A stretch of 32,250 nucleotides of DNA, from assembly GCF_017115095.1 (NCBI RefSeq), contig NZ_JABXKI010000209.1:1-32250 (forward strand), read 5' to 3'. Below the pieces are notes generated by a model. The model ran no database searches and was not told the origin of the DNA. It saw only the letters and a list, made by a program, of their open reading frames with translations. This DNA comes from Nostoc sp. NMS4. GTDB taxonomy: Bacteria > Cyanobacteriota > Cyanobacteriia > Cyanobacteriales > Nostocaceae. Below, piece after piece: positions 1 through 2,200 of this stretch. How positions within the stretch are numbered: position 1 is the first letter of the stretch; every line of letters begins with the position of its first letter. The translations under genes were made by a program, and so were the position numbers.

Positions 1-695
1 TTGGAGATAGCCGTGAAGGTTGGGTTGAATCATATCAAACCCTATTAGAACTCTCTACTGATGAACAATTTTCAGCAGAAGTTGAAGTATTAGTTGATAT
101 CAGCGATGTAAGAAAAGCTGGAGAAACTCTCAACGGTTTTGGAGGAGTTGCGAATCCGGTAAAATTGCCTGGACTTTATCAGCGTTGTGCCTCCATCCTC
201 AATAAAGCTTTAGGACGACAATTAAATTCAGTTGAATCCTGTCTATTAATCGATCAAGCTGCTGTCACAATTGTTGCAGGTAACATTAGGCGATCAGCTG
301 GCATGAGACAAGGTTCTAGCGAAGATAGTTTGTTTGCTGATGCCAAAGATAACTTATGGCAGCAAGATGAAAATGGCAATTGGCGAATCGATCCAGAGCG
401 TGATGCTCTCAGAATGGCAAATCATACGAGAGTTTTTCACCGCAAGCCCACCTTAGAAGAATGTGTTGGTGCTGTCCGCAAACAATATTATAGTGGCGAG
501 GGAGCGATTCAATGGGCTGGTGAAGCCGTGGCGCGATCGAACATTGATTTGCTACCAACTCCTAACTTAAAAATTGAGTTCTTGCAAGCTTACGAACAAG
601 GAACAGCAAAACAGTGGTTAAAAAAACATTATCCAAATCTGGATGCTAATGAGTTAGAACATCGTTTAGCTCGTTACGCTTTAAATCCGTGTGGT
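1..695 (+). CDS. nrdJ: Class II ribonucleotide reductase, exon 1 (5' end outside window)
   Basis: Adenosylcobalamin-dependent reductase that makes deoxyribonucleotides in the cytoplasm. The reading frame is open from base 3 (GDSREGWVES...), so the true start lies upstream of the window. About 231 residues are visible, ending in ALNPCG. The Cys of NPCG corresponds to the thiyl-radical cysteine of the monomeric Lactobacillus-type enzyme (C408 there). Without splicing the frame runs two codons further and stops at TGA 699-701, so the protein depends on removal of the intron at 696-983. After joining 695 to 984 the text reads NPCGEIIGSNFHCNLSEVHLN, the expected family sequence. The redox-partner cysteine near the N terminus (C119 in the Lactobacillus enzyme) is not in the window. 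Family and exon boundary are very secure. Confidence 0.95.
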
Positions 696-983
696 AATTG
701 ATTTTGCCTCACGTTAAAAACCTCGCAAAAACGGGGAAAGCTGAGATGCTAATCCCGTGGTAATCAAAGGAATTAAAAAGCCTTTGACACCGTACAGCGT
801 AGAGAGTGAAACTAGATTACATCGAAAATTTGTGTCTAGAATATAATCTCTCCAAGAGTGCGGGGGCGGATGTGAAAAACACTTTTATTATCTGAAGTCA
901 CATCTGCAAAAGGTACGCGGAGCTACTGCAAATAATCAAGCAGTAGAACTAGGGGATAAAAAGCCTCTAGGGTAACAAATCTG
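696..983 (+). ncRNA. Group I self-splicing intron in nrdJ
   Basis: A 288-nt intervening sequence without an ORF. The exon ends in U and the intron ends in G, as in group I introns. P1: exon bases 689-695 (GUGUGGU) pair with the internal guide 706-712 (GCCUCAC), with one U-U mismatch and a U.G wobble exactly at the splice site. P10: intron 700-705 (GAUUUU) pairs with the first six bases of exon 2, 984-989 (GAAAUC). Further helices: P2 721-725/732-736; a hairpin 765-770/781-786 in the P4-P6 region; candidate P3 743-747/846-850; P7 GCGUA 797-801 with UACGC 914-918; P8 866-875/898-907; P9 923-929/940-946; a last hairpin 949-955/964-970. The 65 nt between the P7 strand and P8 suggest extra P7.1/P7.2 helices (IA-like); the subgroup is inference. 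No homing endonuclease is encoded. Confidence 0.93.
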
Positions 984-2054
984 GAAATCATCGGTAGTAA
1001 CTTCCACTGCAATTTGTCAGAGGTTCACCTTAATCAAATCGACCCACATAACTACAAAGAACAAGAGGAGGCTTTCACTGCTGGGGCGTTATCTGTAGCA
1101 GCACTTTTAAATCACAAATTCCTGGAACCACGCTATCAATACAGCCGTGAATTAGATCCGATTGTGGGAGTTTCTTTTACAGGTTTATTTGATTTCTTTG
1201 TCCATGCTTTTGGTGTTGATTGGCTGCGCTGGTGGGAAGCAGGAAGACCCGCAACTGCACAAGGATTAGTTTTCAAGCGTGAGGAAGAGAAATACCTAAG
1301 TTCCTGGAGAGATATTGTACATCGGGTAGTTTGGGATTATTGCGATCGCCACAATCTCAAACGTCCAAATCGTTGTACCACAGTCCAACCCAGTGGCACT
1401 AAGGCTTTATTAACTAACGCTAGTTCAGGGTGGCATCCCCCGAAAGCCCAAAGATTTATTCGCCGGATCACCTTCGGGAAAAATGACCCAGTAGCCTTAG
1501 CTTGTATTGACTATGGTTATAACGTCATTCCGTCTCAATCAGATAAAGATGAACACGGCAATTTGCTTAACGATCCCTTCGATCCACGGGTGAGTGAATG
1601 GTTAGTAGAAATCCCTGTTTCTGTAACTTGGGCTGATTTACCAGGGGCTGATGAAATTGATGTTTCTAAATTTTCAGTCTTAGCCCAATTTGATTTTGTC
1701 CTCCAGGTTCAACGTTGGTACGTGACTCACAACACATCAGCTACTTTAGAACTGCGTTCTGATGAAATCGAACCTTTGGGACAGCGTATTTACGAAACCA
1801 TTCAGAATGATCAAGGATATATTTCAGCAGCTCTTTTAGCCCGTTTTGACGATTTGCAATCATTCCCACGTTTGCCGTTTGAACCAATAGATAAATCAAC
1901 CTACGATCTCTTAAATCAAGAGGTGAAAGCGCGGCGCAAAACAGATGACTTCTGTGCAGTACTAAGTCGCTACGATTTAGGCGAAATGACAGAGGCTGGC
2001 CCTAGTGGTTGTGATTCTGATAAGTGTATGTTTCCCGATCAACAACCAAGCTAG
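984..2054 (+). CDS. nrdJ: Class II ribonucleotide reductase, exon 2 (C-terminal part)
   Basis: Continues nrdJ in frame after splicing, 356 residues to TAG. It starts with the Glu that matches the catalytic Glu of NPCGE (E410 in the Lactobacillus enzyme). Then comes HCNLSEVHLN, whose Cys matches the active-site redox cysteine (C419). The family signature TVQPSGTKALLT followed by GWHPP lies around exon-2 residues 125-150. The tail GCDSDKC carries a C-x4-C pair like the C-terminal shuttle cysteines (C731/C736) that re-reduce the active site through thioredoxin. The pattern is that of the monomeric RTPR-like class II enzyme usual in cyanobacteria, so no NrdB partner is expected. No start codon belongs to this part: an in-frame TTG near 1014 is internal. 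Confidence 0.95.
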   Translation, partial: EIIGSNFHCNLSEVHLNQIDPHNYKEQEEAFTAGALSVAALLNHKFLEPRYQYSRELDPIVGVSFTGLFDFFVHAFGVDWLRWWEAGRPATAQGLVFKREEEKYLSSWRDIVHRVVWDYCDRHNLKRPNRCTTVQPSGTKALLTNASSGWHPPKAQRFIRRITFGKNDPVALACIDYGYNVIPSQSDKDEHGNLLNDPFDPRVSEWLVEIPVSVTWADLPGADEIDVSKFSVLAQFDFVLQVQRWYVTHNTSATLELRSDEIEPLGQRIYETIQNDQGYISAALLARFDDLQSFPRLPFEPIDKSTYDLLNQEVKARRKTDDFCAVLSRYDLGEMTEAGPSGCDSDKCMFPDQQPS

Positions 2055-2074: not shown

Positions 2075-2200
2075 GGAGATGAGGGGGATGAGGGAGACAA
2101 GGGGACAAGGAGATAAACAAAACTCCTAACTCCTAACTCTTAACTCCTAACTCCTAACTCCTAACTCAGCACTCAGCACTCAGCCCTCAGCACTCCTAAC
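2075..2200. repeat. Composite purine-rich plus heptamer tandem repeat
   Basis: Fills most of the 217-bp gap after nrdJ. The first part (about 2075-2115) is G/A-rich with units like GGGAGATGA and GGGGACAAG. From 2121 to 2200 runs a degenerate 7-bp tandem array, first CTCCTAA/CTCTTAA units, then CTCAGCA/CCCTCAGCA units, ending with CTCCTAA. Period-7 arrays are a known feature of heterocystous cyanobacteria (STRR sequences). The same purine-rich-then-heptamer layout recurs at 16211-16321 (inside a gene) and 20138-20256. Confidence 0.85.

Follow-up and report, generated by a model that had tools for sequence, protein, structure and literature searches.

The window analyzed here, a stretch of 32,250 nucleotides from contig NZ_JABXKI010000209.1 of Nostoc sp. 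NMS4, opens within nrdJ, the gene of an adenosylcobalamin-dependent ribonucleotide reductase, recognized by its matches to the TIGR02505 profile. The gene holds a 288-nt insert (696-983), which we consider with high confidence to be a self-splicing group IA intron of phage type that has spread into this single site across cyanobacteria, endonuclease homing being the most likely route; the copy in the window has no endonuclease and probably lost it. The intron is real and apparently intact. As a group I intron in nrdJ it represents a known kind, and introns have been reported in this gene before; its interest lies in the endonucleases at the same site in relatives, the locking of the adjacent codons, the neighbouring inteins and a clade that Rfam misses.

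The split nrdJ gene

All features of the gene and the intron lie on the forward strand. Exon 1 (3-695; TIGR02505 positions 181-378, E 3.9e-49) terminates in NPCG and exon 2 (984-2054; positions 379-723, E 8.6e-114) begins with EIIG. Both are open reading frames (ORFs) and they are contiguous in the profile, with no gap across the insert. Hence, the earlier note on this DNA, which had placed a 288-nt insert between the Gly and Glu codons of NPCGE, was right to the base. The Cys of this motif is, we take it, the radical-site residue. The contig (G000:C68) begins inside nrdJ (window 1-3), so that the 5' part either lies elsewhere or is absent. In the host genome (98.7% complete), nrdJ is the sole TIGR02505 match, and neither the class III reductase family PF13597 nor PF02867 gave a match; as PF02867 also misses the window's own nrdJ, its silence is informative for other reductase classes only. 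nrdJ is the only ribonucleotide reductase gene detected in this genome.

We compared 81 nrdJ genes, namely that of the window and its best 80 named matches. An intron is present at this site in 44 of them (286-1156 nt), 19 have the exact empty site, 10 carry an insert directly upstream of the Cys, and in 8 the only insert is at FH|C. Within the genus, intron DNA was matched in 39 of 53 genomes, the window's included, and the insertion site is identical in the 29 other genus genomes whose loci were measured, as well as in G001. Nostoc punctiforme NIES-2108 (L032) carries a 288-nt intron at exactly the window's site. The comparison across Nostoc suggested in the earlier note thus recovers the same position, and its description of such introns as rare does not hold within the Nostocales. 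That the insert is an artefact of sequencing or assembly, or sits dead in a pseudogene, has a negligible probability: nrdJ does run off the contig start, leaving its 5' end uncheckable in this contig, but intron DNA occurs in 38 other genus genomes and 43 named loci have an intron at the site (some may be the same genomes), which already refutes the artefact, and both exons are open with a contiguous family match. Exact-pattern scans of 386 cyanobacterial genomes, which undercount, found the 5' junction pattern in 21 and the 3' motif in 20, in every case ordered as in the window.

Two introns at the site stand apart, one strongly divergent on a long branch (L089) and one of 247 nt in G125 (L280), where the P1 strand reads GCTTCAC instead of GCCTCAC.

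A covarying group I core

We drew a structure of 76 pairs from the window and the general rules of group I introns, comprising P1, P3-P6, P6a, P7 with a bulged A, P7.1, P7.2, P8, P9, a 3' hairpin and P10, and counted its pairs on an alignment of same-site introns that MAFFT had built independently of the structure. The alignment holds 29 of the 44 introns, those above 420 nt and near-copies having been dropped. Overall, 97.9% of 2169 cells are paired. Changes on both sides of a pair occur at 42 of the 76 pairs, for a mean of 27.6 in shuffles, and none of the 500 shuffles reaches 42. They occur in 300 cells vs a shuffled mean of 107.1, and the covariation score is 0.402 vs 0.154, with 0 of 500 shuffles reaching either value. 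Related rows may beat shuffles even without a structure. A control in which the structure was slid by 1-3 columns speaks to this caveat, as pairing then falls to 36-48%. Compensatory changes were seen in P3, P4, P5, P6, P7, P8 and P9, and P3, P4, P5, P7, P8 and P9 vary by whole-pair swaps between lineages, e.g., GCGUA/UACGC, GACUA/UAGUC and GCAUA/UAUGC in P7. The earlier call of a group I intron is therefore borne out by a conserved core, most of it with covariation.

The two junctions are marked by P1 and P10, as previously proposed. P1 (689-712) consists of 689-691/710-712 and 693-695/706-708, with U695.G706 at the 5' splice site and a U692/U709 mismatch. Its six pairs, including the U.G at the cut, are invariant in 29 of 29 sequences and, since they never vary, are uninformative by covariation. 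P10, formed by 700-705 and exon 2 positions 984-989, has 6 of 6 pairs in the window. Its outer pair, 700/989, covaries with the wobble base of exon 2 (GC 14, AU 11, GU 1, other 3) and is unpaired in 3 of 29 sequences.

Inside the intron, P3 (5' strand 721-727, 3' strand 859-865) has changed on both sides at 5 of 7 pairs, with 99.0% of cells paired. P4 (731-736/753-758) and P5 (739-741/748-750), which span 731-758, have changed at 6 of 9 pairs with 100% of cells paired, and P6 (759-761/789-791) with P6a (765-770/781-786), spanning 759-791, at 5 of 9. P7, the guanosine-binding site, is made of a 5' strand at 795-801 and a 3' strand at 914-919 (797-801/914-918 plus C795-G919, with A796 bulged); 100% of its cells are paired. 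The earlier note had listed P7, P8 (866-874/899-907, spanning 866-907) and P9 (923-929/940-946, spanning 923-946), and these show two-sided changes at 3 of 6, 7 of 9 and 5 of 7 pairs, respectively. A P9.1-like hairpin lies near the 3' end (949-970), where 955-978 is a motif common to introns of viral contigs. P7.1 (802-806/848-852) and P7.2 (812-816/835-839), spanning 802-852, are covarying and lie between P7 and P3. The hallmark of group IA (IA2-like) introns is the presence of P7.1 and P7.2 between the 5' strand of P7 and the 3' strand of P3, and by this rule the insert would belong to that subgroup.

The folding energy is low both for 670-1010 (z = -5.1 vs 100 shuffles) and for 713-975 (z = -5.1 vs 200 shuffles). 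A terminal G, at 983 in the window, is found in 74 of 74 same-site introns, a set that counts the window twice and in which some genus genomes may duplicate others. The complete covarying core, with P1, P10, P7 and this G, fixes the predicted splice sites at 695/696 and 983/984.

The P8 loop holds small repeats in some relatives: L045 and L048 have a TTGAGCGGCTTGCCCTGAGCGTAGCCGAAGGG-type element there, L036 has heptamers of the sequence CAAAAGT, and L057 has a related sequence. P8 looks like a tolerant insertion point of the nrdJ intron.

Predicted splicing, in-frame stops and uniform exon 1 codons

In the nascent nrdJ mRNA the intron would fold and the guanosine held in P7 would attack after U695. 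The freed exon 1 would then attack after G983, giving a ligated junction that reads ...CCGTGTGGT/GAAATC and encodes NPCGEIIG. The reading frame confirms that an unspliced mRNA stops at TGA 699-701, the second codon of the intron, which rules out the intein reading of the window insert. In all 44 introns (the window's and those of 43 named loci), the second or third codon of the intron is an in-frame stop (TGA 23, TAA 18, TAG 3). This stop would keep ribosomes out of the intron core.

One might see in these stops a regulatory intron, in which splicing is a guanosine-, Mg2+- or translation-dependent switch on nrdJ expression. The host gene is the only reductase detected, the stop precedes the core in 44 of 44 introns, and SAM_alpha matches weakly (20.2 bits, gathering score 36). 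However, this match is far below the gathering score and overlaps P1 and P3, while 19 of the 81 genes have no insert at the site and 18 have intein-class inserts instead, so that no such regulation is conserved. In-frame stops are also found in many group I introns (PMC3984707). We regard a switch as very unlikely.

The exon 1 codons next to the intron are CCG TGT GGT in 44 of 44 intron-bearing nrdJ genes vs 5 of 27 intron-less ones (Fisher 6.5e-14, kinship ignored). The 27 are the 19 empty sites plus the 8 genes with an FH|C intein; genes whose intein precedes the Cys (10) were left out.

Inteins beside the intron

The intein sites lie at NP|CG, directly before the Cys and 6 nt upstream of the intron site, and at FH|C, 24 nt downstream. 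Most of these inserts were classed as inteins by position and length. Three were tested with profiles, L033 and L102 (NP|C) and L050 (FH|C), and all three match intein and LAGLIDADG-like families, with weaker scores for L050. Among the 81 genes, the intron is absent from 18 of 18 intein-bearing loci (Fisher 3.9e-8, kinship ignored). Strict exclusion between the intron and the adjacent inteins was considered and rejected, since it is not absolute at the FH|C site: G402 (L288) and G125 (L280, by eye) carry the intron together with an apparent FH|C intein.

A further in-frame insert of 1137-1221 nt between exon 1 residues ~97/98 was observed in L041 (4090-5310) and 20 more of the 81 loci. The one in L041 has matches to LAGLIDADG-like and homing-endonuclease families, together with weak ones to intein splicing blocks.

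The intron has moved between lineages

To study the inheritance of the intron, we compared intron and exon trees. On a quick exon tree, intron state requires 20 changes, at least 11 of them forced by supported branches; shuffled labels need a mean of 26.9, so that intron state is also clustered. Two intron clades are rejected by the exon data, namely {L083, L086, L088, L098, L099} (p-value of the approximately unbiased test, p-AU, 3.5e-42) and that of the GACUA-type introns (p-AU 2.8e-6); rejection is weaker for the placement of L099 with a wider Anabaena/Dolichospermum clade (p-AU 0.024). Conversely, the intron data reject the supported exon clade {L100, L104, L108, L111} (p-AU 0.004). L086 and L099 are 79-80% identical in their exons and 92% in their introns. 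These conflicts mean that the intron has moved laterally, and they rule out vertical inheritance alone. The intron would have spread between cyanobacteria into the nrdJ site, most likely, judging from its relatives, by endonuclease-driven homing.

One alternative is that the intron is now stable and vertically inherited in this lineage, no longer moving, its patchy distribution being the result of losses. The intron clade of the window, which on the midpoint-rooted tree is sister (96/86) to a clade of 5 rows that includes L083, L086 and L099, has no endonuclease gene in 21 of 21 rows (286-337 nt), and the uniform exon 1 codons imply that a loss would need to be exact. Against this, the tree conflicts lie outside the 21-row clade, and purifying selection acts on the endonuclease genes of relatives. 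In addition, the endonuclease-bearing intron of G244 is 85-86% like those of two congeners in the shared core, whereas the exons are 88-97% alike, a mild contrast. We consider present stability unlikely, if still deserving of attention, and favour an intron that homes within the group.

Endonuclease genes at the same site

Intact endonuclease ORFs were found in 3 of the 44 same-site introns. The one in L083 encodes a GIY-YIG protein (PF01541, E 2.3e-10) and sits in the P7.2 region. L086 and L099 share a PD-(D/E)XK-like ORF of 322 amino acids that lies in P8 and continues through the 3' core, its stop lying eight bases before the intron end. The same ORF occurs in G244 (L279), and G490, an assembly with 38% contamination, has two copies of this type with 78% identity. 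The ratio of nonsynonymous to synonymous rates (dN/dS) of the 322-residue ORFs is 0.09-0.13, indicating purifying selection. NUMOD3 was found in the L086 protein (E 8e-5) and is below the cut-off in L099, and PHROG endonuclease families match the N-terminal part (E 1.8e-10). No close relative of the protein was found in phage records (tblastn) or viral contigs (pattern scan). L088 has a 506-nt intron with a broken copy of the gene, and L098 retains its apparent first codons (0 of 200 shuffles as good).

The intron of the window carries no such gene: as the earlier note had said, there is no endonuclease ORF in it, the longest stop-free stretch in six frames being 56 codons. An intron without an endonuclease would persist because its removal must be exact. 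How such an element stays or moves, the question raised at the outset, is thus answered in part by the endonucleases of relatives and by the tree conflicts. One gene samples the likely stages of a homing cycle (empty site, endonuclease-bearing, broken endonuclease, endonuclease-less) among related cyanobacteria, and these stages stand beside inteins that invade the same active-site codons.

Movement as an IStron, i.e., a group I intron carried by an IS605/TnpB transposon, would be another explanation, and the paper on the RIR intron of N. punctiforme does name an insertion sequence element in its title. Yet the window intron has no ORF of transposase size, transposase families gave no match for the ORFs of L086 and L099, and L083 encodes a GIY-YIG protein whose only matches of transposase type are to helix-turn-helix families. 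With no IS605-type transposase gene in the introns of the window, L083, L086 or L099, we rejected this candidate as extremely unlikely.

Evidence against endonuclease homing and loss

Several results weigh against the history proposed here. We infer the splicing of the window intron from its sequence. The Rfam model Intron_gpI (RF00028) gave no match on the window, neither at the gathering score nor up to E 10. No co-conversion tract was seen, identity in the flanks not being raised beside the junctions. Most of the 44 introns are without an endonuclease gene (an intact one was recognized in 3, a broken one in L088). For the 322-residue protein, the mean predicted local distance difference test score (pLDDT) of the model is 47.6, with residues 21-100 at 73-90, and Foldseek with this model found no match at E <= 0.001. 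The protein is a predicted PD-(D/E)XK-like endonuclease, its cleavage role likewise predicted, and all evidence on its fold is marginal.

The possible traces of a lost gene in the window gave mixed results. Read in the endonuclease frame, window 868-972 has 63% identity to residues 286-322 (E 5e-6), a value that comes partly from the overlap of the ORF with the shared RNA core. An anchored protein test of P8 alone was matched by 3 of 20,000 dinucleotide and 64 of 20,000 codon shuffles; it was framed after the match had been seen. In this test 17 of 20 relatives, which are close kin, score at least 10, but L036, L057 and L106 are below -16. In an unanchored DNA test of the window's P8 alone, 72 of 2000 shuffles were as good and the best match fell in another part of the gene. 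For most close Nostoc relatives, too, it falls at or near nt 190-228 rather than at the end of the gene, and in some of them few shuffles do equally well (0 of 200 for L034 and L038). Hence, P8 is a possible fossil of the last codons of the endonuclease, and it is plausible, not proved, that the window copy lost such a gene.

The silence of Intron_gpI extends to 10 of 10 tested loci with a same-site intron. The model scores above its cut-off at two other group I introns of the same genome (L112 and L113; 71.6 and 53.1 bits), around which ARAGORN called no tRNA. Among 11 viral loci carrying relatives, it is silent on 10; the remaining one, L165, has two matches, one of which overlaps a weak nrdJ-profile match, so the border of what Rfam detects is not sharp. 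Since the core is conserved and covarying, same-site relatives are missed as well and other group I introns are found, we attribute this to a blind spot of the model. An Rfam match is a detection criterion, not a defining feature of group I introns. The earlier note had counted both a missing covariance-model match and a missing conserved core against a group I intron: the match is indeed missing, and the core is present and covaries. Matches of the window to SAM_alpha, CRISPR-DR17 and Hatchet were rejected, all being far below the gathering scores.

Given that the Rfam model can miss a whole clade, intron counts for bacteria and phages that build on this model may be underestimates, and the annotation of split nrdJ genes may be wrong. 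A 2025 group I intron database was seeded by a search with Rfam models, at a very lax E-value (PMC11835236). It may share the gap of Intron_gpI, which the lax E-value may reduce.

Two further features were noted: 7-base tandem repeats (AACTCCT, ACTCAGC) at window 2121-2195, right after the nrdJ stop, with five further heptamer arrays within the window; and five tandem copies of NsiR1 (nitrogen stress-induced RNA 1) on the minus strand of L089 (9629-10257).

Phage relatives and comparison with known systems

The 24-nt 3' motif of the nrdJ intron (955-978) matches at least 120 stretches in IMG/VR. A profile of the intron matched 120 of the 120 listed stretches, with one hit spanning the core in 64 and hits in pieces in 7 more; reversed sequences gave 0. 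As the motif is part of the profile, only the 64 core-spanning matches are informative. Frames beside 17 such viral introns encode, by eye, dUTPase-like, tape-measure-like and capsid- or terminase-like proteins. Among GenBank phages, 15 records have partial matches, none covering 80% of the query. The IMG/VR contigs L166, L184 and L122 were seen to carry two or three introns of this clade each, some of them split 5'/3' by several hundred bases.

Putting these observations together, we propose tentatively, as quite possible though short of probable, that the nrdJ intron belongs to a large phage-linked IA clade missed by Rfam, homes in cyanobacteria into the radical-site codons of the reductase by an undescribed NUMOD3 PD-(D/E)XK endonuclease whose gene overlaps the 3' core, competes with two inteins for a target of ~30 bp and freezes synonymous catalytic codons, the window being an endonuclease-deleted end stage. 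In the literature searched, mostly outside subscription papers, we found no description of endonucleases in same-site nrdJ introns, of the codon locking or of the Rfam-missed phage-linked clade, which is weak evidence of novelty.

The closest known system is the group I intron of the RIR gene in N. punctiforme PCC 73102 (Meng 2007, as cited in PMC3984707, PMC1995217 and PMC12702839). It lies in the same gene and, as far as these citing texts go, was described with an insertion sequence, which the window intron lacks. Judged from the site in NIES-2108 (L032), it is probably the same intron as the window's.

Class II reductase inteins share the active-site loop with the nrdJ intron, but they splice at the protein level, carry LAGLIDADG-like domains and have other insertion points. 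The nearest solved fold of the L086 protein is I-Bth0305I (3r3p), a marginal likeness (E 0.017, prob 0.99), and there is weak sequence likeness to T7 endonuclease I (E 0.02); NUMOD3 sets the L086 protein apart from I-Bth0305I and other PD-(D/E)XK-like nucleases. Phage introns of group IA2 have P7.1 and P7.2 between P7 and P3, as in the nrdJ intron, and carry endonuclease genes in peripheral loops. The phage T4 nrdD intron is visible to Intron_gpI (105 bits), unlike every nrdJ intron tested.

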